DNA from: a virus
DNA length: 30,134 nucleotides
Strand: one strand, 5' to 3'
Virus record (IMG/VR): IMGVR_UViG_3300027741_000193
Span: 1-30,134 of that record
The position numbers and the translations under genes were made by a program. Shown here piece by piece: positions 107 to 22,887 of this stretch. Each line of letters starts with the position of its first letter. Positions within the stretch are counted from its first letter, which is position 1. The notes below the pieces were generated by a model, which made no database searches, was not told where the DNA came from, and was given only the letters and a program-made list of their open reading frames with translations.

Positions 107-505
107 TCACTGAACCCTCACTGTCGTTCGTGCTTCGTCGCCCCACGATTTTTCCACGATCAATCGCCGCACGTTCGTGTCGTCAAACAAATCTTTCAGC
201 GAGTCAAGAACTGCCTTTGCGACGTTGTCCACGTCCGCTCGTGGAAGTTGCGGCGCAGTCGCCTTTACGCCACGCTTCGTCAGATGCGATTTGGGACGTA
301 TGAACACAGCGTCAATGATGACTTCAATTGGTTCGCTTACTGGCAGCAATCCAGCGTCAATCGCCGCACGCAATACGCCTGCACGGTACGCATGCACTGG
401 ATGTTTTGACGGCACGTACGCTCTTGCAAATCCGCAGCGTGTGCTCACTCGCACTCTGGGCTGCGGCACTGGATCGCCTGCGACGCTGAACGTTATCGGT
501 TTCAT
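107..505 (-). CDS. rusA: RusA-family Holliday junction resolvase
   Basis: This 132-aa protein matches the RusA family in length and pattern. RusA enzymes cleave Holliday junctions in phage recombination and replication intermediates before packaging. The N-terminus reads as the usual beta strand (ITFSVAGDPVPQPRVR). The catalytic block is PRADVDNVAKAVLDSL at about residues 88-103, with the metal-binding D91 and D93 followed by N94, K97 and D101, then DD near 108-109 before a strand ending VEK. It follows the 527-775 gene by 21 nt. The ATG has no Shine-Dalgarno sequence; instead it ends the shared start-associated motif described at 503-530. It is the last gene readable at the left edge. The family call is firm; the physiological role in this phage is inferred from RusA relatives. 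Confidence 0.93.
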   Translation of the reverse strand: MKPITFSVAGDPVPQPRVRVSTRCGFARAYVPSKHPVHAYRAGVLRAAIDAGLLPVSEPIEVIIDAVFIRPKSHLTKRGVKATAPQLPRADVDNVAKAVLDSLKDLFDDTNVRRLIVEKSWGDEARTTVRVQ

Positions 506-530
506 GCACCGAGCATCGCATCAGCGTCAA
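503..530 (-). promoter_or_regulatory. Start-associated motif, copy 1 (before rusA)
   Basis: Read on the minus strand this site is TTGACG, 4 nt, TGCGATGCT, 4 nt, GCATG, where the final ATG is the rusA start codon. The TGA in TTGACG is the stop codon of the upstream gene. Three other genes carry the same pattern at identical spacing (2990-3017, 17300-17327, 22860-22887). There is no Shine-Dalgarno sequence between the motif and the ATG. Function unknown; a protein-binding site or a phage-specific expression signal are the main options. Confidence 0.6.
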
Positions 531-1353: not shown

Positions 1354-1429
1354 ATCGTCCGTCCTTTCGTCCGTGTGAAACAGCCGCTCCTTGCGGCACT
1401 GCTTACACGGTAGACACGACGTCAAGCGA

Positions 1430-2158: not shown

Positions 2159-2992
2159 TCAACGGAAAAGCGGACCTGCGCCAGACTCAACGGCTGCGAT
2201 CCTCGCCTTGGCGATCTCAACGTAACCAGCGTCACGCTCAATCCCGATGAAATCATGCCCCCTTGAAACGGCCGCAACGCCCATCGTGCCAGAACCGCAG
2301 AAAGGGTCTAAAAGCATTCCGCTAGGCGTGCAGATATAGCGCGTCCACCAATCCGCAAGCGAAAGAGGCGTCGCCGCTCCGTGCGATCCTTTCTCGACAT
2401 TCGCTCCCTGGATTGGCAGCACATTGAATGGCGTAACGCCACCACGCTCAACCGCAGCGCTGGCACATCTATCTTTTCGCATTGAAAGCCCAGAGGGCAT
2501 GACACGCAAAGCACGGTCGCCATTTCGTGCGGCTGCGTTACTCATGGACTCAGACCACAACACCTCTTCCTGGTTTCTGTAACAATCGCTATGCCCAAGC
2601 CATACGCATGCCTTCATGCTTGGACGCATCAATCCTCTTCTTCGCTGACAATGGACTGTAGGTGCAGTTGTGTGGTTCCACCACCACGCATCCTGCACCA
2701 TGTTCCACTCGCGTGCCCATTTCGCCATGAACTCAAACAGCCACGGTCGCATGCGTCCAACCTTTTCGCTGTTTGGCTGAAGGATGAAAACGGCGCTGCC
2801 ATGCGGCTTCAAGATTCGCCGCACTTCCGACACGACGCCGTCCATCAGCGTGTGCCATTCCGGCTCAGTGAGGCGACCGTACGGGCGGTTTATTTCAGCG
2901 TACGGCGGGTCTGTAACGACTGCGTCAACGCTCTCTGCCGGAAGCGTGCGAAGCACTTCCAGGCAGTCGCCGTGATAGATGTTCCATGACAT
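2159..2992 (-). CDS. DNA methyltransferase (beta-class N6-A/N4-C)
   Basis: A 277-aa SAM-dependent DNA amino-methyltransferase. The catalytic motif TDPPY is at residues 27-31 and the SAM-binding motif LDPFCGSGTMG is near 228-238, followed by GHDFIGIERDAGYVEIAKARI. DPPY before FxGxG indicates the beta group, which includes orphan phage methyltransferases. No restriction enzyme is adjacent, so it probably protects phage DNA against host restriction or changes a regulatory site. The start ATG at 2992 has no Shine-Dalgarno sequence but carries the start-associated motif (2990-3017). It follows the 3014-3328 HTH gene by 21 nt. The target sequence cannot be read from the sequence alone. Confidence 0.93.
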   Translation of the reverse strand: MSWNIYHGDCLEVLRTLPAESVDAVVTDPPYAEINRPYGRLTEPEWHTLMDGVVSEVRRILKPHGSAVFILQPNSEKVGRMRPWLFEFMAKWAREWNMVQDAWWWNHTTAPTVHCQRRRGLMRPSMKACVWLGHSDCYRNQEEVLWSESMSNAAARNGDRALRVMPSGLSMRKDRCASAAVERGGVTPFNVLPIQGANVEKGSHGAATPLSLADWWTRYICTPSGMLLDPFCGSGTMGVAAVSRGHDFIGIERDAGYVEIAKARIAAVESGAGPLFR

Positions 2993-3017
2993 GCACGCAA
3001 CATCGCAGGCGTGTCAA
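2990..3017 (-). promoter_or_regulatory. Start-associated motif, copy 4 (before methyltransferase)
   Basis: On the minus strand: TTGACA, 4 nt, TGCGATGTT, 4 nt, GCATG, with the ATG being the methyltransferase start at 2992. The TGA inside TTGACA is the stop of the upstream HTH gene. Spacing is identical to the copies at 503-530, 17300-17327 and 22860-22887. Confidence 0.6.
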
Positions 3018-3328
3018 GTCAAACCGTTGAACCGAAATCCGTCCCACGAGTACCGAGGCGTGCTGACACGTTCCTCCCTCGGCTCAGGCTGCACTCGCTT
3101 GGCTCGACACTCCGCCGCACGCTCTGCGATCTGCTCTGGAGTTGGGTCGTCCGCGAGGATGTCCCTTGTTGACCGCTGGCGGTTTGGCAACTTGTGCCGC
3201 ACCTTCAACCGAGCGACAAAAGACTGCGAACAGCCGAGGGCTGCGGCGATCTCCCAGTAGGAGTCGCCGCGAGCGCACAGCCGATGCAGTGTCACAGCGC
3301 AGTATTCCACTTCGCGTCCTTGTGGCAT
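3014..3328 (-). CDS. Helix-turn-helix protein
   Basis: A 104-aa protein starting MPQGREVEY, its ATG one nucleotide after the dnaN stop codon. Residues 10-50 (VTLHRLCARGDSYWEIAAALGCSQSFVARLKVRHKLPNR) read as a homeodomain-like HTH with the sequence pattern of resolvase/transposase-type DNA-binding helices. The second half has an acidic segment (ADDPTPEQIAERAAECRAKR) and a C-terminus ending WDGFRFNGL. Likely a phage DNA-binding regulator; a small-terminase-like role is possible but it sits far from the structural genes. The start is chosen from the gene junction; a longer frame to 3478 lies inside dnaN. Confidence 0.8.
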   Translation of the reverse strand: MPQGREVEYCAVTLHRLCARGDSYWEIAAALGCSQSFVARLKVRHKLPNRQRSTRDILADDPTPEQIAERAAECRAKRVQPEPREERVSTPRYSWDGFRFNGLT

Positions 3329-4745: not shown

Positions 4746-4963
4746 GCGTCACCGCCTTCACGCTGTGAGCGAATGAACTCCATGACGTCAGCACCAAAGA
4801 CGTAGACCTTATTGCCAAAGACGTGCCGCTTCAGTCCACTGCTGAAAGCAAGTGACACCTCGTCAACACTCCACTCAAGCCTCATAGACAGTTCGTACGC
4901 CGTGTACATGGCATCAGAAATGACAGCCCCAGGAATGAAGTGGTCAGGTGCTTTTCGGCTCAT
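4742..4963 (-). CDS. Excisionase-like / MerR-type HTH protein
   Basis: A 73-aa protein with the layout of the small DNA-binding proteins grouped with excisionases: a helix (AYELSMRLEWSVDEVSLAFSSG), a loop of basic residues (LKRHVFGNK) and a short wing plus final helix (VYVFGADVMEFIRSQR). Such proteins in phage early regions act as transcription regulators or recombination directionality factors. ATGA overlaps of 4 nt on both sides show it is one unit with the flanking genes. Being distant from the integrase, it is more likely a regulator of replication genes than the excisionase itself. Confidence 0.7.
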   Translation of the reverse strand: MSRKAPDHFIPGAVISDAMYTAYELSMRLEWSVDEVSLAFSSGLKRHVFGNKVYVFGADVMEFIRSQREGGDA

Positions 4964-5196
4964 GCGTCACCGCCAATCACGCGGATGGTGCGAGCCTCGC
5001 CGTCCTGCCAAGTGATCCAGCCTTTACGCCTCATGGGCCGCAGGTGGCACATGACGCCGTTTGTCGTCCAGCGGAACGCCTGGCCGATCTGGCGGATCGT
5101 TGGGCTGTAGCCGTGGACGTTGATGTACCCGGTAACCCAGCCGAGCACTTCGTGCTGCCGGGGCGTTAGTGGCTGGCGTTCTGTTGTCGTGGTCAT
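4960..5196 (-). CDS. LexA-type winged-helix DNA-binding protein
   Basis: A 78-aa protein corresponding to only the N-terminal DNA-binding domain of LexA: LTPRQHEVLGWVTGYINVHGYSPTIRQIGQAFRWTTNGVMCHLRPMRRKGWI follows the LexA pattern (T-RQ-VL--I--YI--HG--PT-REI------S---V--HL--L-KKG-I). No C-terminal S24 peptidase domain follows, so it cannot self-cleave. It lies between the replication-initiator-like gene and the excisionase-like gene, overlapping each by 4 nt. Probably a phage regulator that acts at LexA-like or phage sites. Confidence 0.82.
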   Translation of the reverse strand: MTTTTERQPLTPRQHEVLGWVTGYINVHGYSPTIRQIGQAFRWTTNGVMCHLRPMRRKGWITWQDGEARTIRVIGGDA

Positions 5197-6261: not shown

Positions 6262-6814
6262 GGCGCACCTCTTGGCGATACTCATCCAAAAGCCAACGCT
6301 CTAGCTTTCTTCTCTCATCCTCCATGCCGGCGGCTGTAAGCACAGGAATCCAGGTGTCGGCGTCCACTACTACATCCAATATTTTCTCGCCGCTAAAGAT
6401 GCTTACTTCGATGTATGTGAACGGAGGATCTTCACCGCATACGTAGAAAAACCTTCCGCCGAGTCCGCCCTGTCTTTCTCTAAACACGCGGCAGTCATGG
6501 CAATTTTTCTTCAGTGAAAGCGATTGGCGACGAATTTCATTCTCAGCAATTGTTACATTTCGCTTTCTGTCGATACGTGCCAAAACAGCAAAATGTCGTT
6601 GGAATGAATCCTTGTTCTCAAATGGATCGCAAACGTATTCATCGAATGCGATGTCCTCAACGCACTCTTGCTCAACGACAACGCGGACTGTCCTGTCGAT
6701 GTCGGTGAGGTACGCTCCTCTGCCAGCGCGATCGCGGTGCATGTTTGCCCATGCGTCACCACTGCCGTCGCGACGAACGGCAACTCCGTTCGTTCCTCTA
6801 ACTTGAAAGTCCAT
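6251..6814 (-). CDS. Hypothetical protein
   Basis: A 187-aa protein starting MDFQVRGTNGVAVRRDGSGDAW. The ATG at 6814 has SD GAGGTT and overlaps the end of the ParB-methyltransferase gene by 17 nt; a TTG six bases earlier is less likely. Alternating strands (TVRVVVEQECVEDIAF...HFAVLARIDRKRNVTIAENEIRRQSLSL) and a C-terminal helix (EDERRKLERWLLDEYRQEV) are visible. A CHDCRVF segment could bind metal but lacks a second pair. Base composition is lower in GC than that of its neighbours, suggesting separate acquisition. No family recognised. Confidence 0.7.
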   Translation of the reverse strand: MDFQVRGTNGVAVRRDGSGDAWANMHRDRAGRGAYLTDIDRTVRVVVEQECVEDIAFDEYVCDPFENKDSFQRHFAVLARIDRKRNVTIAENEIRRQSLSLKKNCHDCRVFRERQGGLGGRFFYVCGEDPPFTYIEVSIFSGEKILDVVVDADTWIPVLTAAGMEDERRKLERWLLDEYRQEVRHDR

Positions 6815-8432
6815 TGGCAACCTCGCGGATTCTTTTGGTGGCTTTCTCCGCTACGTCTTTGTCGATCTCAATGCCGACAAACGTCATTTGTTTTACGACG
6901 CAGACGACTCCGGTCGTTCCTCCTCCCAAGAACGGGTCGAGCACAACGGAGCCGCGCTTAGTGAACCGCTCGACGATGTCGTCCATGCCCGACTCGGACT
7001 GACCCCAGTGATGGTGATCCTTGTCGTTGTCATTTGGCTCTGACTTGCAGACATCGCCGACCCAGTCGCCTACGTAATCACCCTTGGTAAACCAGAGGAG
7101 CGGCTTCCAGAAGGTATTTACCTTCCGCTCCCAAAGTTGGACTGACTGACCGCCAGGCGTGATGTACCCGCACGTCCAGTGGTACTTGAGGTGCTTCGTC
7201 ATTCCCGCCACGATGTCGGGAAGGTATGACTGTCCGATCATGACGATGCACGAGCCGCCGGGCCTTAGGACGCGGCTGGCAAAGAGTGCAAGCTCTTCGT
7301 AAAGCGGCACAAACTCGCGAGGGTACGGCGGGTCGGTAATGATGATGTCGATAGATTCGTCGGCAACTGGCGCCTCGCGAAAGTCGCAGGCGTGAACGAC
7401 AAACGTCGGCTCAACCTCTTCCTTTAGCGACGCCTCAAAAGCGGCCATTACATCCTCGACGTTGTCTCGTTGCCTGCGAACTTCTCGCAGGCTCCAAGAC
7501 TTGCCGCCTGCGTTTTCTCGCAGCCACTTAGTCCACTCGCCAACAACCTGCGGGACGGCGGGCCGTAGTTCTGGCTTCCTCTCGTTGACCATCGCATTCA
7601 TGAGTTCAACCCACGCTGTAAGCTTTTCGAAAAACTCACAAGCCACCGCTACGAGCCTGTCAACGTCGTGTGTGGTCAGGCGCTCGCACGCGATAGCAGC
7701 CGTGACAGGCAGCTTCGGGAGCCAGTGCTGGCAGAGCCAGCCAATGTCTTTTCGCGAGTCGGACTCGTAAAAGGCGTTCGCTGCTGCAACGTTGGCGGCA
7801 GTCTTGTCCACCGACCATCCCTTGCCGTCTTCGCCGCCAACGAGCATCGCCTGGACGACCTCGGGCCAGTGCGGGTGCGGGCCGTCTTTTGGTTTACCAG
7901 CGAGACCGTGGATGGCGTTCAGGTGCTGCGTCTTGTTAAGCAAATCCATAAGTTGACTTATGGATTTTGCGACCTCCGCAGCCGAAACCAGTTGCGAAAG
8001 GTACGGCTGCGACTTTCCGATCTTGCGGGCGTAGTCAGACAGCCCGCCTTTCTTGCCTCTGCCGGCACTCGCCTTGCCGACGCGATCCAGCGCGTGCAGC
8101 CCGATCTCCAGCGGCGCGAGCTCGCCCTGGTTGTTGCTCGTCGCCAGTGCCATGTAAGCCTCGTCGTCGTCCATCTCGACGACCCAAGACGGCACGACAT
8201 CAATCCCGGCTTTTGCTGCCGCCGCCTGGCGATGATGTCCGCTGATGATCTCGTAGCCGTCGTCCACGGCTCGCACGGTAATCGCGTGACGAGACTTCAT
8301 GTGTCCTCGCTCTTGCAGGTCCGTAGCGATGGCATCAACAACGTCATCGCGTAGGGAAACTCGCGGGTTTTTCGGGTGCGGTTTCAGTTGCGAAACCGGA
8401 ATCAAAGTGATCGTGTCCGTGGCCGTGGTCAT
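6798..8432 (-). CDS. ParB-like domain fused to DNA methyltransferase
   Basis: A 544-aa two-part protein. Residues 8-95 are a ParB/Srx-fold domain: LIPVSQLKPHPKNPR, then YEIISGHHRQAAAAKAG with the SGHHR box at 64-68. Residues 126-155 (GKKGGLSDYARKIGKSQPYLSQLVSAAEV) read as the HTH that follows ParB domains. Residues 345-540 are an amino-methyltransferase with TDPPYPREF at 366-374 and SAM motif VVLDPFLGGGTTG at 497-508. ParB-methyltransferase fusions occur in phages and mobile elements and are regarded as DNA modification enzymes, the ParB part probably guiding or modifying activity. SD AAGGA lies before the ATG. Residues 156-164 are encoded by a 26-bp palindrome (see 7942-7967). Confidence 0.93.
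   Translation of the reverse strand: MTTATDTITLIPVSQLKPHPKNPRVSLRDDVVDAIATDLQERGHMKSRHAITVRAVDDGYEIISGHHRQAAAAKAGIDVVPSWVVEMDDDEAYMALATSNNQGELAPLEIGLHALDRVGKASAGRGKKGGLSDYARKIGKSQPYLSQLVSAAEVAKSISQLMDLLNKTQHLNAIHGLAGKPKDGPHPHWPEVVQAMLVGGEDGKGWSVDKTAANVAAANAFYESDSRKDIGWLCQHWLPKLPVTAAIACERLTTHDVDRLVAVACEFFEKLTAWVELMNAMVNERKPELRPAVPQVVGEWTKWLRENAGGKSWSLREVRRQRDNVEDVMAAFEASLKEEVEPTFVVHACDFREAPVADESIDIIITDPPYPREFVPLYEELALFASRVLRPGGSCIVMIGQSYLPDIVAGMTKHLKYHWTCGYITPGGQSVQLWERKVNTFWKPLLWFTKGDYVGDWVGDVCKSEPNDNDKDHHHWGQSESGMDDIVERFTKRGSVVLDPFLGGGTTGVVCVVKQMTFVGIEIDKDVAEKATKRIREVANGLSS
7942..7967. repeat. Perfect 12-bp inverted repeat inside a gene
   Basis: AAATCCATAAGT is followed after 2 nt (TG) by its exact reverse complement, and outside it GC pairs with GC again after a one-base bulge. 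It encodes residues 156-164 of the ParB-methyltransferase using codons (ATA, AGT, TTG) atypical of the gene. It could be a protein-binding site or an mRNA hairpin. Confidence 0.6.
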
Positions 8433-8503: not shown

Positions 8504-8692
8504 TCAACCACCGCACGTCTTCAGCTGCTTTGCTCTCTGTCGTGGACAAAGGCGAACCTCCGTCGGCAAGCAAAATCGCGGTCTGCGCCTTCTCGCCTTG
8601 CGTGAGATTTCGCTGGCTTTTCGCCAAAGCTTTTCAAGCCTTGCGATCAGCACGGCATCAGCGATCTTCGCGTCAAATCCGAGATAGCTCAT
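8504..8692 (-). CDS. Small basic hypothetical protein
   Basis: A 62-aa protein beginning MSYLGFDAKIADAVLIARLEKLWRKA, with a highly basic middle (RKARRRRPRF). Its ATG shares one base with the stop codon of the upstream gene (TGATG), which sets the start. Possibly nucleic-acid binding; no family recognised. Confidence 0.6.
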   Translation of the reverse strand: MSYLGFDAKIADAVLIARLEKLWRKASEISRKARRRRPRFCLPTEVRLCPRQRAKQLKTCGG

Positions 8693-9003
8693 CACGCACA
8701 CCTCCACTCGCGCTCGCCCCTACCACTCGCACTCGTCACCACTCGTCCCGTCTCAACGATCCTCCCAGCCTTGGCAAGTTCCGTGAGTCGCTTGTTGACT
8801 TGATGCCCGAGCAGTCCGCATCGAGCAGCAATGCCTGACGCACCCGCCGGCCCGTGCGAAAGCGCCTCGAGGATCGCCGCGTGGTGCTCGCCTGCGAACG
8901 CCTTGACGCTCGCGGCTGCGGCCTTGCTCGTCACCGGATCGGTGCGGCGAAACAGCGGCAGCGTGTCTTCGATGTCTGGCGTGATGTAGTGGGGGCGGGT
9001 CAT
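8692..9003 (-). CDS. Winged-helix DNA-binding protein
   Basis: A 103-aa protein with SD AAGGA before ATG 9003. DPVTSKAAAASVKAFAGEHHAAILEALSHGPAGASGIAARCGLLGHQVNKRLTELAKAGRIVETGR is the pattern of small phage winged-helix proteins: an TDP-TS--AA lead, an H--IL--L helix, recognition helix (HQVNKRLTEL) and a wing (GRIVETGR). It ends with a short basic strand (GEREWRCA). Probably a regulator of the neighbouring module; its partner or site is not evident. Confidence 0.78.
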   Translation of the reverse strand: MTRPHYITPDIEDTLPLFRRTDPVTSKAAAASVKAFAGEHHAAILEALSHGPAGASGIAARCGLLGHQVNKRLTELAKAGRIVETGRVVTSASGRGEREWRCA

Positions 9004-9289: not shown

Positions 9290-9629
9290 AGATCACCTCG
9301 TCAGCGACGTCGTTGGCTGAATCACGCTCGCGCTCCGTGAGTGACTTCCAGGCAACGCGGGTGGCAATCTCAGGAACGCCGTGCAGAAAGCAGCACGACG
9401 CCTGACCGACCCAAGATCGTCTGTTAGTTCCAACGGCTGTCAGATGCACGGCGCTGGATGTAGGCCACGCCTCAACCATGTGCCGAGCCGTTGAGCCAAA
9501 GCCGATGCAATCACGTAGGAGCGATGCAGCCAGCATCGCAAGCCGGTCAAGCTCCACAGATGCCGGGGCGTCATACATCCCGTTCTGGAAGCATTCCCAT
9601 TTCCAGTACGGTTCAAACACTTGAATCAT
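9216..9629 (-). CDS. Conserved phage hypothetical protein
   Basis: A 137-aa protein starting MIQVFEPYWKWECFQNGMYDA with SD GGGGGA about 6 nt upstream. The middle has HLTAVGTNRRSWVGQASCCFLHGVPEIATRVAWKSL and the end is a charged helix (SANDVADEVICEYERERSEIHRRL). I recall the pattern F-PYW-WE----GM...NRR-W-GQA-C---G-PE--TR-AW from phages of Proteobacteria, always of unknown function and commonly near ParB-like genes. It lies between the ParB-like gene (overlap 17 nt) and the DUF3440-like tail (overlap 74 nt), so all four seem to be one unit. Confidence 0.78.
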   Translation of the reverse strand: MIQVFEPYWKWECFQNGMYDAPASVELDRLAMLAASLLRDCIGFGSTARHMVEAWPTSSAVHLTAVGTNRRSWVGQASCCFLHGVPEIATRVAWKSLTERERDSANDVADEVICEYERERSEIHRRLATSRLFGRDS

Positions 9630-10158
9630 CTTGATTCCCCCTGCTATCGGAGTCCCAGCAATCGGAAAACTCGCGGCTGGCAAACAAGGCAGCGAGCCCT
9701 GTGATTTGCTTGAGTCGCAGCAACTCGTCTTTATCCATGCCGATGTGCTTAATGATCCAAGCGTCGCTCATGCCAGCCTGGACAAGCTCAGAAACAATGG
9801 ACGACATCAACTCAATCGAATGCGTTCCTCTGGCACGGTTGTGCCGGATCGTTGACGCCATCCGGTTGGATATGTCCTTGTGAATCACGACGACCGGCAG
9901 CATTCCGCCTTCGCGGTCGTATATCCGTTTGCTCGTCTTGAGCGTGGTGTAACGGTGGTAGCCGTCCACAATCTCATACGTGTCGTCAGCCTCGATGTAG
10001 TAGCACACGACCGGCATCGTAAAGCCGTCCTCCCAGATGGACGTCTCAAGCAGTTTCATCTCTGGCGGCGCGACTGCGTTTGGGTTGTATGCGTTAGCAC
10101 GCACCTTATCCACCGGAACGGAGATCACTGAATACACGGGGCTCTTAAATTTGGTCAT
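9613..10158 (-). CDS. ParB-like protein (IbrB/YbdM type)
   Basis: A 181-aa ParB/Srx-fold protein. The domain spans about residues 10-110 with VDKVRANAYNPNAVAPPEMKLLETSIWEDGFTMPVVC, the active-box equivalent YEIVDGYHRY (61-70), and RMASTIRHNRARGTHS. The second half (ELMSSIVSELVQAGMSDAWIIKHIGMDKDELLRLKQITGLAALF) is the helical tail typical of IbrB/YbdM, the partner of the PAPS-reductase-like IbrA/YbdN in enterobacteria. It overlaps its partner gene by 4 nt (10155-10158), so the two are translationally coupled, as expected of a functional pair. IbrB-type proteins are known as regulators of eib genes in E. coli; biochemical activity is unsettled. Confidence 0.88.
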   Translation of the reverse strand: MTKFKSPVYSVISVPVDKVRANAYNPNAVAPPEMKLLETSIWEDGFTMPVVCYYIEADDTYEIVDGYHRYTTLKTSKRIYDREGGMLPVVVIHKDISNRMASTIRHNRARGTHSIELMSSIVSELVQAGMSDAWIIKHIGMDKDELLRLKQITGLAALFASREFSDCWDSDSRGNQDDSSV

Positions 10159-11459
10159 GTTGCACCTTTCGCAAACTTTGCTTCTGCGTCTTTACGAAGC
10201 GCCCAATCTTCTTTTGTCATCCCGAACCCCATGTACTTGCATGAGTGGTCGTTCTTCAGGATGCAAATGCAGACGCGCTTGAATGTGGGGATGAGTTGAA
10301 ATTCAGTCAGGTCAACGTCGTCGATGTAATCCATGCGGATCTTGCATCGCTTTGACTTCTTTCCTCGCGGGCCGACCTGAAGCGAAACGCCTTGTTTCTT
10401 CAGTAGCTCAATCGTTTCGTCAGACACTTCGCCGCCCGTCTTCTGCCAAAACTCAATGCTCGTTTCGACTTTTTTTCGGTAGTTTGCTGCCACCTCCGCA
10501 GGCAGCGTCGTCAGCAAGAATTCCATGTACGTCTTCCACGTATGCCCCTTTGGAAGCGTGATCGACTTCCAGCCCATGGCGGTCGTCCCGCCGTACATGC
10601 CGGCGAAGTTGACGCCGTTCACTCTCCCGACCATCCGGCCCCAGTTGTTGGGGTCAATGACGCGATATAGCTTCAGGCTTTCAATCGCACAGTCATTGAA
10701 CGGGCTGGCAACACGCATCTGATTGAGCGTCAGACCGGCCTGATAGAACAGGTCGTAAAGCTTGTTGTAGTCCCACCCGAACCGAGCGTTGGCGGTCCAC
10801 ACGTCCTCGGTCGTCCAATCAAACAACGGGTAGAAGTTGAACACTGACGGGTACATCTGCGTTGAATAGTTGAGCCCCTCAAAGTTGCTGCCTTCCTTGC
10901 GTTCAGCGTGCAGCGCCTTCCAACGCCTAAAACTTTCCTGCGTGCGAATGCCGACAAGGCAGGCGGTTCGCTTGGCTTTGTTCTTTTTGTGAAGCCAGCG
11001 AGAGAACCGCTTCTGCAACTCGTAGTCCGTCATGCCTTTCTTGAAAAAGTCAAAGGGGCAGTTGCCCTCGTTGACCGACTCCGCTGGCATGTCTCGCACC
11101 CAGATGTCTCGCTTGTCTGCGTCCCAAGGAATCCAGTACGCCTGGTGCATGGACGTCGCACACGGCACCTTCATTGGCAGGCAAATACGGTATGGCTCGA
11201 TGACGTCTCGGTTGCTGCTCAACTCGGCGTCAACGTAGTCGGTCGTCATCTGGTACTGCGCTTCGTAGTCCATGTGCAGCACGCCAAGCTTTCGACCGGG
11301 ATAGTTCCGGCGGACGTAGTCAATGCACAAGTGCAAGAGCACGCCGGAATCCTTGCCGCCAGAAAACGACACGAAGACGTTGTCGAACTCTTTGAAGATG
11401 ATGTCGAGCCGCTCTATCGCGGCGTCGTAGACCGTTTTGTGTTTCTTCTTTGCCTTCAT
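10155..11459 (-). CDS. PAPS-reductase-like protein (IbrA/YbdN, DUF3440)
   Basis: A 434-aa protein, close to E. coli YbdN (about 406). The ATP-pyrophosphatase PP-loop VSFSGGKDSGV is at residues 30-40. It is followed by LGVLHMDYEAQYQMTTDYV, the IGIR-type segment VGIRTQESFRRW, YPLFDWTTEDVW, LYDLFYQAGLTLNQMRVASPF, and a C-terminal DUF3440 part with IPTFKRVCICILKNDHSC at about 390-407. PP-loop enzymes of this type adenylate or transfer sulfur; the substrate of this branch is unknown. I chose ATG 11459 because the family core begins just after it; the open frame extends to 11672 without family resemblance. No strong SD is seen. Coupled by 4 nt to the ParB-like gene. Confidence 0.92.
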   Translation of the reverse strand: MKAKKKHKTVYDAAIERLDIIFKEFDNVFVSFSGGKDSGVLLHLCIDYVRRNYPGRKLGVLHMDYEAQYQMTTDYVDAELSSNRDVIEPYRICLPMKVPCATSMHQAYWIPWDADKRDIWVRDMPAESVNEGNCPFDFFKKGMTDYELQKRFSRWLHKKNKAKRTACLVGIRTQESFRRWKALHAERKEGSNFEGLNYSTQMYPSVFNFYPLFDWTTEDVWTANARFGWDYNKLYDLFYQAGLTLNQMRVASPFNDCAIESLKLYRVIDPNNWGRMVGRVNGVNFAGMYGGTTAMGWKSITLPKGHTWKTYMEFLLTTLPAEVAANYRKKVETSIEFWQKTGGEVSDETIELLKKQGVSLQVGPRGKKSKRCKIRMDYIDDVDLTEFQLIPTFKRVCICILKNDHSCKYMGFGMTKEDWALRKDAEAKFAKGAT

Positions 11460-11723
11460 CTCACTTGCTTTCTGTGGTGGCGCTTTCGCAATCCAAGCCA
11501 ATTCTTGGCAGCAATCATCTGCATTTCCATTTGCCGCAAAAATAAGGCCCGTTTGCATCTGCCACTTCCCGTGTATTTGCCGGGTTACGCCCGGCGCGAC
11601 TGCGTCACCTGTGGAGAAAACATCAAGCCGCAGCTGCACTGATACACGCCTCTTGAGTGCTATGGCGGCCAATGCGGCTCCGATGCAAGCCGCTACGGCA
11701 ATGGCGTGCCGGTCGGTAAATCC
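11460..11723 (-). other. 264-bp gap, possible decayed zinc-ribbon gene
   Basis: No intact gene is convincing here. One frame continues the PAPS-reductase-like ORF upstream and includes a hydrophobic run (HAIAVAACIGAALAAIAL). Another frame has GTG-started YQCSCGLMFSPQVTQSRR ending at a TAA, and the +1 frame beyond that stop reads AGRNPANTREVADANGPY followed by FCGKWKC before a TGA. Joined, these would form a C-x-C-G ... C-x3-C zinc-ribbon-like protein, so a frameshifted pseudogene, a sequencing error or a recoding event are possible. A short frame ending at the ATGA of the PAPS gene is also present. Confidence 0.2.
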
Positions 11724-13437: not shown

Positions 13438-13465
13438 AGTGTACAAAAGACCAGTTGTCAGTCAA
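13438..13465 (-). promoter_or_regulatory. Sigma-70-like promoter of the early operon
   Basis: On the minus strand, TTGACT (13465-13460), a 16-bp spacer and TACACT (13443-13438) precede the AAGGAG Shine-Dalgarno and ATG 13409. Expected transcription start is near 13431. The -35 region overlaps a GTTG-N5-CAAC dyad. It would drive the block 13409 to 107. Confidence 0.5.
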
Positions 13466-14509: not shown

Positions 14510-14537
14510 ATTCTAGCGTCGGCGTTAGAAGTGTCTA
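14510..14537 (-). promoter_or_regulatory. Promoter with operator in its spacer
   Basis: On the minus strand, TAGACA (14537-14532), 16 bp, TAGAAT (14515-14510). The spacer contains the dyad TAACG-CCGA-CGCTA (14527-14514). A repressor bound there would block polymerase. Predicted leader about 44 nt to ATG 14459. Confidence 0.6.
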
Positions 14538-14585
14538 GGGGTGAGGCAAAATATTTTTTCTGGTGCGTTTTAGGCTGCAAAACGC

Positions 14586-14831
14586 CTAATTCGCCTTGAA
14601 TCCGCCCTTTGGGCGTCCGGTTTTCCCGGTCTTGGGGCGGTCGGCGGCGACCTTCTTAACCTCGGCCTCGTCAAAAACGAGGGCGGTTGGAGCGGCCCAG
14701 TAGCGGGTCAGCCCGCCCTTCTTGGCTCCAAGGATGCCAAGCTGGCGAACCCTACCCATCGAGACGCCGAGAATCTTGGCAGCGTCCGCTGTGGAGATGA
14801 GCGTCTTGCCGGTAGGGAGTGCCATGACCAT
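14586..14831 (-). CDS. Small HTH regulator or excisionase
   Basis: An 81-aa protein with TLISTADAAKILGVSMGRVRQLGILGAKKGGLTRYWAAPTALVFDEAEVKK, the excisionase/MerR-type winged HTH pattern (helix, turn, recognition helix, wing, final helix), and a basic C-terminus (RPKTGKTGRPKGGFKAN) that probably contacts the backbone. It is divergent from the integrase and upstream of the operator-bearing promoters, fitting a lysogeny repressor or an Xis-like directionality factor. The promoter at 14838-14865 ends so that the transcript begins at the A of ATG 14831. An internal ATG at 14825 is an alternative. Role inferred from layout. Confidence 0.75.
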   Translation of the reverse strand: MVMALPTGKTLISTADAAKILGVSMGRVRQLGILGAKKGGLTRYWAAPTALVFDEAEVKKVAADRPKTGKTGRPKGGFKAN

Positions 14832-14837
14832 ACCCAG

Positions 14838-14865
14838 ATATTAACGCCGGAATCAGAAGTGTCAA
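14838..14865 (-). promoter_or_regulatory. Promoter of the regulator gene, leaderless geometry
   Basis: On the minus strand, TTGACA (14865-14860), a 16-bp spacer and TAATAT (14843-14838). The position 7 bases beyond the -10 box is the A of ATG 14831. The spacer holds a one-half-degenerate copy of the operator (TGATT-CCGG-CGTTA, 14855-14842). This predicts self-regulation. Confidence 0.6.
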
Positions 14866-16912: not shown

Positions 16913-17302
16913 TCAGTCAAAGATGTGCAACTTCGCCGCCTGCCTTTGCGCCATCGCTTCCACCCTGGCTGGCTTGCCCGGCTCGGACGGCAGCCTGTCC
17001 GGAGGCCGCATAAACACCTCGATGTCCTCGGCCAGTGCTGCCGCCCGGTACTCCACCTCTCGCACAGTGTCGAGCACGAGCGTGTGATCTCCCGCCTGGG
17101 CACGGTCTCGCAGTTCGCCCTGCCCGCCCTTGCTCGGATCGTAGAGCAGTTCAATGCACCACGTGACGCGAGCGCCAATCCTCGCCAGCTTGGTCAAGAA
17201 CTTTCGCATAGGTGGCGACAGCCTCTCGGGCATGCGTCTCCGCTTGCCCTTCGCTGGCGGCAGATCATCATCGGTGACGAACGAACGCTGTACCTCGCCC
17301 AT
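16913..17302 (-). CDS. Hypothetical protein
   Basis: A 129-aa protein, MGEVQRSFVTDDDLPPAKGKRRRMPERLSPPMRKFLTKLARIG..., with a basic patch, a helical core and a long helix near the end (LDTVREVEYRAAALAEDIEVFMRP). No family recognised. The start at 17302 carries the start-associated motif and lacks an SD; the TGA of the upstream gene lies inside the motif. It is the last gene of the late-side block. Confidence 0.7.
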   Translation of the reverse strand: MGEVQRSFVTDDDLPPAKGKRRRMPERLSPPMRKFLTKLARIGARVTWCIELLYDPSKGGQGELRDRAQAGDHTLVLDTVREVEYRAAALAEDIEVFMRPPDRLPSEPGKPARVEAMAQRQAAKLHIFD

Positions 17303-17327
17303 GCGGTGAGTGTTGCACAGGCGTCAA
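17300..17327 (-). promoter_or_regulatory. Start-associated motif, copy 2
   Basis: On the minus strand: TTGACG, 4 nt, TGCAACACT, 4 nt, GCATG, the ATG being the start at 17302. Same spacing and conserved positions as the copies at 503-530, 2990-3017 and 22860-22887. Confidence 0.6.
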
Positions 17328-21294: not shown

Positions 21295-22481
21295 CAGTCA
21301 AGCCTCGGGCCTGAGACGTGCATGGATGATAGGCCGCCACCGTGCCGATAGAGAAACGTCTCCATAGCCTGCCGACTTCCGATCCAGCCGTTGATTGCGT
21401 GGTAGTCATCCGGCGGATTTAACGCCGGCGCTGTCCTGACGATGACGCCGTCAAGCGTGTCAATGGGCTTGTTGTTCGCAGCCGCCTGGTGGTGCAGATG
21501 ACCAGTGTGCCATTCTCGATACACGCTCTGGCTCCATGCCTTGGGTTGCTCAAGTGCCATGATCTGCGGGAGTTTTGGTTTTGCCTTGTGCCCATGCGCA
21601 AACCCAAGAAGGTTTCCGCCGTGCGATAGGTACTGCCTGCCGGTGAAATCCGGTTTCACTTTCGCGATTCGCGAATTGCGAAAGCGTTCTTGCAAGATCC
21701 TCTGGAAAGTCCACGTCAACACCTCGTCGTGGTTTCCGTTGACGATCACGACGTCGGTTGGCACTGTCTCTGCGGATTGATGCACCAGAGACAAGAGCGT
21801 GTCGCATCCGACCTCAATCATCTTCTGAAGTCGTCCGTCGCGCTCTAGCGGCGTGCCGCCGGTCGTCGTGCCTGCTGGCGTGTCGTAGTGGAACAAGTCT
21901 CCCAAGAAGGCGACCGTGCGTCTGGCTGGCTTGTTGTCGTTGCCTACCGCAAGCAGTTCGCTCGCAGCGTCACCCACAAGCCGTGCTGCAATGTCTAGGT
22001 CGTAGTCGCCGCCGCCGGTGGTTTTGTCCCAGCAGTATTTGCCAAAGTGCGTGTCTGCAACAACGAGCACTTGCCACAGACCGTCACGCTTTGGAGCCTT
22101 GACAGATTTGGTCAATGGCTTGCGGATGTCCTTGCGAGCAGCGTCAATCATCGCTTGCACAACCTCGCGAGTCGTCGGCCCAGCCTTCGGCTTGAGCCGT
22201 ACAAACACGCGATGCAGTTCAATGCTGCCGCCGTCGCCGTCGCCGCATTCCCACTTCGTCGCCTCACTGGCTGCAATCTCAAAGCGGCTCATGTCCGCCT
22301 CTATGTGACGCAACAGATCATCAACGGTCTTGATGCGTCTGCTTGTGGATCGTGCCTCAAGCGTGTCACCTGACTGAGACTGCGTCACCTGCTCTGCGTC
22401 AGGGTTCGCAGCAGCAGCCTTTGAAATCTGATCCTTGGCAACGTCTCGAGCGACATCTGCTCTCAAGCTTTGTCGAGCCAT
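21294..22481 (-). CDS. Metallophosphoesterase
   Basis: A 395-aa calcineurin-like phosphoesterase. Metal ligands: D143-x-H145 (ADTHFG), GD at 194-195 (LGDLFHYD), GNHD at 249-252 (NGNHDE), H at 296-299 (AHGHK) and GHLH at 327-330. The domain follows a 120-aa N-terminal helical part. This enzyme class acts on nucleic acids or nucleotides; in phages it often sits near terminase or replication genes. It overlaps the upstream gene by 19 nt. A 26-bp near-palindrome lies inside its coding sequence (21659-21684). Confidence 0.92.
   Translation of the reverse strand: MARQSLRADVARDVAKDQISKAAAANPDAEQVTQSQSGDTLEARSTSRRIKTVDDLLRHIEADMSRFEIAASEATKWECGDGDGGSIELHRVFVRLKPKAGPTTREVVQAMIDAARKDIRKPLTKSVKAPKRDGLWQVLVVADTHFGKYCWDKTTGGGDYDLDIAARLVGDAASELLAVGNDNKPARRTVAFLGDLFHYDTPAGTTTGGTPLERDGRLQKMIEVGCDTLLSLVHQSAETVPTDVVIVNGNHDEVLTWTFQRILQERFRNSRIAKVKPDFTGRQYLSHGGNLLGFAHGHKAKPKLPQIMALEQPKAWSQSVYREWHTGHLHHQAAANNKPIDTLDGVIVRTAPALNPPDDYHAINGWIGSRQAMETFLYRHGGGLSSMHVSGPRLD
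21643..21684. repeat. Nested palindromes inside metallophosphoesterase gene
   Basis: GTGAAA and TTTCAC (21643-21659) adjoin a 26-bp near-perfect palindrome (21659-21684; arms CTTTCGC and GCGAAAG with centre ATTCGCGAAT, one mismatched pair). Codons of residues 265-274 are read through it. Possible regulator site or mRNA structure. Confidence 0.5.
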
Positions 22482-22723
22482 GACAGGACTCCCTGCATGC
22501 CAACGTCAGAGATGCCACGGGAACGCATGTTCTCCGCGATGGCTCTGGCTAGCGTCTTCTTCCGCGTGCCTAGATCGCCAGCCTTCCACTCTGCCTTGAT
22601 TGCGTCTAGTTCCTCGCGGTACCGAGGAGCGAGCCGCTCATACCACGTTGCAGGACCGTGGCGATAATCACTTACTGCCCTTCGCACGTCGTCGAGCAGG
22701 CCGATTGTGCTTTTCGTCTTCAA
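22463..22723 (-). CDS. Small basic hypothetical protein
   Basis: An 86-aa protein from a TTG start with a very strong SD (AAGGAGG, 6 nt upstream); an upstream ATG would not have one. LKTKSTIGLLDDVRRAVSDYRHGPATWYERLAPRYREELDAIKAEWKAGDLGTRKKTLARAIAENMRSRGISDVGMQGVLSWL is basic and helical, with a composition like DNA-binding small terminase-type proteins, though no specific motif is present. Overlaps 22668-22862 by 56 nt and the metallophosphoesterase by 19 nt. Confidence 0.6.
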   Translation of the reverse strand: MKTKSTIGLLDDVRRAVSDYRHGPATWYERLAPRYREELDAIKAEWKAGDLGTRKKTLARAIAENMRSRGISDVGMQGVLSWLDKA

Positions 22724-22862
22724 TCTGTGCCTCCTTGCGTTCGAGGTGAATCCAGCCGTCATCGTCTGGGATGCCGCCGCCGCCGCACTCCTCGTCGTCG
22801 TCATCCAACTCGGGAGGCAGGATCACCGCCTCGGTCGTCGGCTGTGGCTTGGTGCGTCCCAT
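22668..22862 (-). CDS. Small hypothetical protein, acidic centre
   Basis: A 64-aa protein with an acidic, glycine-rich middle (ELDDDDEECGGGGIPDDDG) and a basic tail (RPARRRAKGSK). It starts at the start-associated motif (22860-22887) without an SD. Its last 56 nt overlap the next gene. Moderate support only. Confidence 0.55.
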   Translation of the reverse strand: MGRTKPQPTTEAVILPPELDDDDEECGGGGIPDDDGWIHLERKEAQIEDEKHNRPARRRAKGSK

Positions 22863-22887
22863 GCCTACAGCGTGGCAGGGCTGTCAA
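22860..22887 (-). promoter_or_regulatory. Start-associated motif, copy 3
   Basis: On the minus strand: TTGACA, 4 nt, TGCCACGCT, 4 nt, GCATG, with ATG 22862. Here the TTGAC is not a stop codon, which argues that the motif is conserved for its own sake. Confidence 0.6.

Follow-up and report, generated by a model that had tools for sequence, protein, structure and literature searches.

The viral contig IMGVR_UViG_3300027741_000193 of IMG/VR, whose 30,134 bases are referred to here as the window, carries a motif that recurs at the start codons of genes lacking a Shine-Dalgarno sequence. The motif consists of a TTGAC box, a TGC followed by a conserved A and T, and a terminal GCATG in which the ATG is the start codon. 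The patterns seen in the sequence make it very probable that this motif is a leaderless promoter, with the RNA starting at the A of the ATG. The best overall explanation, with a probability of roughly 0.8, is a phage-specific class of promoters for the host sigma-70 RNA polymerase, which would give rise to leaderless mRNAs and be served by an activator bound at the upstream box.

Motif copies in the window and in relatives

Four exact copies are found in the window, all on the minus strand and all at start codons:

503-530, minus strand: predicted short-spacer leaderless promoter of the RusA gene (107-505); TTGAC at 530-526, TG at 520-519, -10 hexamer GATGCT at 517-512, predicted +1 at A505 of the ATG
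2990-3017, minus strand: predicted short-spacer leaderless promoter of the DNA methyltransferase gene (2159-2992); TTGAC at 3017-3013, -10 hexamer GATGTT at 3004-2999, predicted +1 at A2992
17300-17327, minus strand: predicted short-spacer leaderless promoter of gene 16913-17302; -10 hexamer AACACT at 17314-17309, predicted +1 at A17302
22860-22887, minus strand: predicted short-spacer leaderless promoter of gene 22668-22862; -10 hexamer CACGCT at 22874-22869, predicted +1 at A22862

The first-pass annotation had reported four copies with identical spacings, the absence of a Shine-Dalgarno sequence at each, and a TGA that doubles as the preceding stop codon in the first three but not at 22860-22887; all of this was borne out. 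In the copy at 3017-3013, this TGA ends the gene of a helix-turn-helix (HTH) protein (3014-3328). With up to three mismatches allowed, the window contains five matches, compared with 0.07 expected in dinucleotide shuffles, and none of 100 shuffles reached five. The imperfect fifth match (9523-9550), with CATC at its end, is internal to an open reading frame (ORF) and does not mark a start. With regard to the less familiar products, gene 16913-17302 encodes a member of the MGEVQRS family (MGE), of unknown function, and gene 22668-22862 a member of a small acidic family, MGR...GGGIPDDDGW (MGR). The MGR gene is overlapped by 137 nt, in a different frame, by the ORF 22463-22804 (minus strand), an arrangement also present in many relatives; the true start of this ORF is probably within or past the overlap, and one relative begins at MAKAKPSLLDDV.

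Homologues of the RusA, MGE, MGR and methyltransferase proteins were retrieved by protein, without selection on the motif. The pentamer TTGAC is present 5' of the ATG in 97 of 107 contexts, a count of distinct contexts and not of evolutionary events, drawn from related phages that are non-independent samples, which has to be set against the promoter reading. The motif is thus not missing from close relatives. An A at +14 and a T at +18 of TTGAC occur in 96 of the 97; in the one remaining context, a second TTGAC had been mis-assigned. TTGAC lies 25 nt from the ATG, or 26 nt in a minority, and the extra base falls between the -10 element and the ATG: the spacing of TTGAC to the -10 element stays constant in the homologues, while that of the -10 element to the ATG is 6 or 7 nt. 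What is fixed in the relatives is therefore TTGAC-N8-nA(-11)nnnT(-7), with the TGC and GC parts varying. In diverged methyltransferase relatives, the hexamer reads TATGTT, TACGTT or TAGGCT, i.e. plain -10 elements.

The element accompanies more than 10 unrelated gene families. It is missing from some RusA relatives in which a different gene lies upstream, and is therefore a movable cassette; a methyltransferase-type copy precedes RusA in the contigs L022 and L071, and a RusA-type copy precedes a different gene in L075 and L097. Across 2.9 million viral contigs, the exact pattern was found in 103 stretches, mostly homologue starts in related phages, compared with 9 stretches for a same-composition control in which TGACT replaced TTGAC. 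Few unrelated viral contigs had the pattern, at close to the control level. A relaxed pattern run on 27 records gave 60 sites among the matches listed, against 3 for the reversed pattern. Among isolated phages, relatives were restricted to distant matches to the tape-measure and methyltransferase proteins.

Two spacing classes of TTGAC and the -10 element

The spacing between TTGAC and a downstream TAnnnT, sampled in 20 related phages (747 kb), has two peaks, at N17 (48 sites) and N8 (20 sites), with 1-13 sites at other spacings. The form with TG, TTGAC-N5-TGnnAnnnT, occurs 51 times, with at most 13 at any other spacing. An ATG follows the short-class -10 element after 6 nt (39 sites) or 7 nt (12 sites), other distances accounting for 0-9 each. 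An ORF of at least 40 amino acids is opened by 50 of 51 sites in these phages, so that the motif is not equally common away from gene starts. The N17 class is the canonical promoter, with a hexamer spacer of 16, and the N8 class is the motif itself, with a hexamer spacer of 7, outside the 16-18 bp that separate canonical -35 and -10 hexamers. Unlike the canonical class, the short class favours GC immediately 5' and A or G immediately 3' of TTGAC. Two canonical promoters of the window are relevant here:

14838-14865, minus strand: predicted canonical promoter TTGACA-N16-TAATAT, 6 nt from the ATG at 14831 and leaderless by the same -10-to-ATG distance
13438-13465, minus strand: predicted canonical promoter TTGACT-N16-TACACT, followed by a leader with a Shine-Dalgarno sequence, at the start of the RecT operon (ATG 13418)

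Canonical sites mainly adjoin genes of the immunity/excisionase region and the RecT operon, and palindromic-looking repeats often accompany them. In the immunity/excisionase region (14510-14865, minus strand), the 16-bp-spacer promoters of relatives overlap such repeats, for example TAACGC...GCGTTA, which are probably repressor operators, and one canonical promoter of this region serves a leaderless excisionase-like gene (ATG 14831). Gene 14459 (minus strand) has a TAGACA-N16-TAGAAT promoter upstream of it, and about 6 nt further on, ahead of the real start, comes ATGCGAGCACGAGTGA, which could possibly encode a five-codon leaderless leader peptide.

The starts downstream of the short class are set apart by their lack of ribosome-binding signals. 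A Shine-Dalgarno-like tetramer is found at none of 50 motif starts, compared with 21 of 27 other starts in the window and 12% of random 16-mers. No ribosome-binding site would be needed because the mRNA would begin exactly at the start codon. As regards an extended -10 element, TG at -15/-14 is present in 111 of 160 distinct leaderless sites and mostly missing where T(-12) is present, with 103 of 142 leaderless sites without T(-12) having it, compared with 12 of 77 TAnnnT sites. Such an exchange of TG for T(-12) is expected of extended -10 elements and therefore supports the promoter reading. Two other promoter arrangements were discarded. A canonical -10 element set 16-17 bp after TTGAC would have the hexamer nGCATG, without A(-11) or T(-7), and a sigma-54 promoter is misfitted by the spacing of the conserved bases, as judged by inspection.

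A leadered copy separates the probable promoter from the start codon

A further copy of the element, outside the reach of the pattern used in the first-pass annotation, is situated well upstream of its gene:

1407-1425, minus strand: leadered copy of the predicted short-spacer promoter, TTGAC-N8-TACCGT; predicted +1 at A1400, then a 47-nt leader with a Shine-Dalgarno sequence and gene 1039-1353
1383-1397, minus strand: predicted 5' leader hairpin GCCGC-aagga-GCGGC of the transcript of gene 1353, conserved as a structure

In the family of gene 1353, TTGAC-N8-TAnnnT is located 45-50 nt upstream in 40 distinct contexts, with a better -10 element (TACCGT or TAGTGT), and gene 1353 and its homologues have a leader, a Shine-Dalgarno sequence of their own and a 5' hairpin after the element. 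At the predicted +1 of the 40 contexts, CA is found in 38 and GCA in 21. Since the leadered copies have CA at this position, the GC|A of the leaderless copies can be read as the same start-site context with the addition of TG. It is from this CA and from the geometry of the sites that we infer an RNA 5' end at the A of the ATG. The stems of the leader hairpin differ between phages (GCCGC/GCGGC, GGACGC/GCGTCC and GCCTCA/TGAGGC), and the hairpin is perhaps an RNA-stability or regulatory element.

The case for a promoter with its start site at the ATG thus rests on four observations: the leadered copies of gene 1353, the canonical promoter placed 6 nt from the ATG at 14831, the exchange of TG and T(-12), and the -10-to-ATG distance known from leaderless genes of Deinococcus. 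This bears on the three roles that had been proposed for the motif at the outset. An unusual promoter is strongly supported, and the binding of a phage regulator is plausible as part of it, while a replacement of the ribosome-binding site does not stand, because the element also lies 45-50 nt 5' of a gene that is itself equipped with a Shine-Dalgarno sequence and because a leaderless RNA would start at the ATG. The broader idea of a translation-level element akin to start-associated sequences, binding the ribosome or a phage protein on the RNA, has in its favour the position at start codons and the missing Shine-Dalgarno sequence, but is very improbable given that same leadered copy, a distance to the ATG that shifts by one base when the DNA spacing does not, the promoter signatures A(-11), T(-7) and TG/T(-12), and a TGC...GCA pairing, tried as an RNA hairpin, that reaches 3-4 bp at most and is lost in natural variants.

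How the promoter might be read

In the proposed mechanism, domain 2 of sigma would read nAnnnT (-12 to -7), aided by TG at -15/-14 where T(-12) is missing, and RNA synthesis would begin at the A of the ATG, with GC|A as the preferred context. The TTGAC box would then occupy -25 to -21, nine bases nearer to the -10 element than a -35 element, where sigma domain 4 in its usual place would be unable to read it. Most likely, TTGAC is bound by a small monomeric activator contacting sigma near the -10 element, so that a DNA-binding factor at -25 would recruit the host sigma-70 RNA polymerase. The constant spacing between TTGAC and the -10 element across unrelated genes, both leadered and leaderless, points to a factor that touches RNA polymerase, and some phage factor is probably required. 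In terms of timing, canonical host promoters (immunity and RecT genes) would fire first, and the activator would then switch on RusA, the methyltransferase, 1353, MGE and MGR. This picture suggests that the virus redirects the RNA polymerase of a planctomycete host with a protein of its own.

The candidate for the activator is encoded next to one of the motif copies:

3014-3328, minus strand: HTH protein of 104 amino acids, candidate activator, with a GcrA-like/HTH_23 DNA-binding domain, a conserved DPTPEEI helix and a C-terminal YSWDGxRF hairpin

Of 25 motif-bearing contigs, 21 encode the HTH protein. In the remaining four, the early region is partly or mostly missing, and one of them has just a 20-amino-acid fragment of the protein at the stretch end. 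The protein is absent from both records without leaderless motif sites. Its predicted model comprises the HTH, an additional helix and a beta hairpin, and for 25 of 51 matches to its gene the stop codon is also the TGA of a short promoter. GcrA-type proteins are sigma-2 cofactors of Alphaproteobacteria (PMC7403470, PMC12340889), and the suggestion that the HTH protein is the factor, working like Caulobacter GcrA, is a tentative one, with the odds somewhat against it. The HTH gene is directly followed by the DNA methyltransferase gene (2159-3328, minus strand), an arrangement recalling the GcrA/CcrM pair; the methyltransferase gene is missing in many relatives.

Several observations weigh against this account. 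Many of the leaderless -10 elements are poor, for example CACGCT and AACACT, and TTGAC is also the -35 consensus, which hints at sigma 4 itself as the reader. As for the HTH protein, Pfam GcrA matches 10 of 13 homologues with a best E value of 4.4e-5, but HTH_23 scores better; the match to GcrA among solved structures has an E value of 0.29, and a fold search with the model gave no match at E <= 0.001. Past the HTH domain, there was no convincing sequence or fold match to the C-terminal sigma-2-interacting domain of GcrA. A LexA-like protein (4960-5196) and a winged-helix protein (8692-9003) are almost as widespread in these phages. The link of the HTH protein to activation, made of co-occurrence and a weak profile match, is thus a lead and not a proof. 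The LexA-like protein (minus strand) has 78 amino acids and a LexA DNA-binding domain only (Pfam E value 4e-19), with no peptidase domain, and is widespread in these phages.

A more far-reaching formulation, held with somewhat less than even confidence, is that of a new form of sigma-70 takeover, in which TTGAC at -25 would be read either by a phage GcrA-like monomer sitting on sigma 2 or by sigma 4 shifted nine bases downstream by a phage factor, switching on a leaderless set of middle/late genes from a 25-bp cassette mobile between genes. If true, a class of phage promoters would have its -35-like box at a site that ought to be out of reach for the sigma factor, a bench-testable case of the limits within which sigma contacts can be diverted. 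A cassette of 25 bp that would set the RNA start exactly at the ATG might also be a tool for planctomycetes. More generally, motifs conserved at start codons can be promoters when no Shine-Dalgarno sequence is present, which corrects a natural misreading.

Alternative explanations

The main alternative is that sigma 4 is moved by a phage factor: a phage protein acting in the manner of gp39 or AsiA would bring it about 9 bp closer to the -10 element, where sigma 4 itself would read TTGAC at -25 across the 7-bp spacer. The pentamer is identical to the core of the canonical -35 element, which in the same phages stands 16 bp from its -10 element, and gp39, besides moving sigma 4 some 45 angstroms, redirects RNA polymerase to extended -10 promoters (PMC7403470). 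However, no displaced sigma 4 is known to read DNA at -25, no AsiA- or gp39-like protein was identified, and the flanks of TTGAC differ between the two classes, a difference of which shared ancestry may account for a part. We regard this explanation as unlikely, although it comes ahead of the other alternatives.

Only slightly less well placed is the possibility that TTGAC is an operator through which a phage repressor silences ordinary extended -10 promoters, the fixed spacing being due to shared descent. The phages are temperate (they carry an integrase) and encode the LexA-type DNA-binding protein, and a site beside the -10 element would block RNA polymerase. Repression, on the other hand, needs no constant distance to the -10 element, yet this distance is constant across unrelated genes and in leadered as well as leaderless copies. 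Moreover, the canonical promoters of the immunity region bear other, palindromic-looking repeats, and many -10 elements without T(-12) seem too weak to work alone.

It is improbable that TTGAC merely reflects an overlapping stop context, with a plain extended -10 leaderless promoter being read by the unaided host. The TGA does end an upstream frame of at least 60 codons at 36 of 50 sites, and Deinococcus-Thermus is known to use leaderless promoters with a plain -10 element (PMC12340547). Nevertheless, at the other 14 of the 50 sites no long upstream frame ends at the TGA and TTGAC is kept, in agreement with the earlier view that the motif is no side effect of stop-start spacing. In addition, the first T and the C of TTGAC are unnecessary for a stop, the TGACT control fell far below the motif in the viral collection, and the short class shows no excess in Planctomycetota chromosomes.

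Host and phage specificity

A planctomycete host, as previously proposed, is supported at the phylum level by protein relatives. A 395-amino-acid phage protein has relatives that are 51-53% identical in three Planctomycetota genomes, and 57 of 241 genomes from a single Planctomycetota family encode relatives of a conserved protein of the tail gene block; neither tRNA nor attP gave a clue to the host. Searches of an open-access full-text library turned up neither a start-site study in planctomycetes nor a paper naming planctomycete phages.

The short class itself is, as far as tested, specific to the phages. Bacterial and archaeal genomes totalling 257 Gb contain 38 scattered matches to the exact pattern. 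Three Planctomycetota (800 kb) show no peak at N8 (8 sites, compared with a mean near 7.6), and the strict short form has 11 matches in 119 Planctomycetota genomes, about the number expected by uniform chance, just 4 of which open ORFs of at least 40 amino acids. The scattered genome matches and the lack of a short-class excess in Planctomycetota speak against a general host motif. One match in an Isosphaeraceae genome (L231) was dismissed as chance, with a 7-amino-acid frame and no phage genes. The canonical form TTGAC-N17-TAnnnT-N4/5-GCATG occurs 45 times in the 119 genomes, compared with 21 for the reversed control, an excess of about 2-fold, and one checked site precedes a MerR-like gene; the hosts may have leaderless canonical promoters as well.

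Elsewhere in the window, a ParB-like protein adjoins a PAPS-reductase-like protein at 9613-11672 on the minus strand (phrog_2159, phrog_2302), and a ParB-methyltransferase fusion is encoded at 6798-8432. These genes possibly form a DNA-modification or partition-like cluster.

Comparison with known systems

The first-pass annotation had likened the motif to the start-associated sequences of cluster K mycobacteriophages (PMC3203893). The likeness holds for position: both are repeated at phage gene starts, precede unrelated families and sometimes overlap the upstream stop. It does not extend to sequence or function, since the cluster K sequence contains AGGAG and is proposed to act in translation (PMC3203893), whereas the present motif is promoter-like and without a Shine-Dalgarno sequence. 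The cluster K element is defined by GGGATAGGAGCCC, located 3-7 bp ahead of the start and pairing with rRNA (PMC3203893), and here none of the 50 sites has even a Shine-Dalgarno-like tetramer.

The candidate HTH protein has in common with GcrA a related DNA-binding domain, followed by a helix and a hairpin. It is, however, shorter (104 amino acids, compared with 173), its C-terminal part is without detectable likeness to the sigma-interacting domain, and GcrA recognises methylated promoters (GANTC) and not TTGAC.

Leaderless promoters of Deinococcus-Thermus have TANNNT 6-7 bp upstream of the ORF (PMC12340547), and thus share with the phage motif a -10 element 6-7 bp before the ATG, an RNA start at or near the start codon (predicted, in the phage) and the lack of a ribosome-binding site. 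They need no upstream element, a suitably placed -35 region just enhancing them (PMC12340547). The phage motif, in contrast, has a fixed TTGAC 8 bp upstream of the hexamer, often goes without T(-12) and is confined to one phage group.

The middle/late promoters of Thermus phage P23-45, which work with gp39 (PMC7403470), resemble the motif in being a phage class with no usable -35 element, an extended -10 element and host sigma, though no conserved -25 box has been described for them and no homologue of gp39 was identified in the present phage. In T4 middle promoters, the MotA box differs in sequence and is centred at -30, compared with -25 to -21 (centre -23) for TTGAC, and the present genes, unlike those of T4, are predicted to be leaderless. 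Nonetheless, as in the sigma appropriation by MotA and AsiA (PMC6755090), a phage-specific upstream box appears to take the place of the -35 element beside a sigma-70 -10 element.
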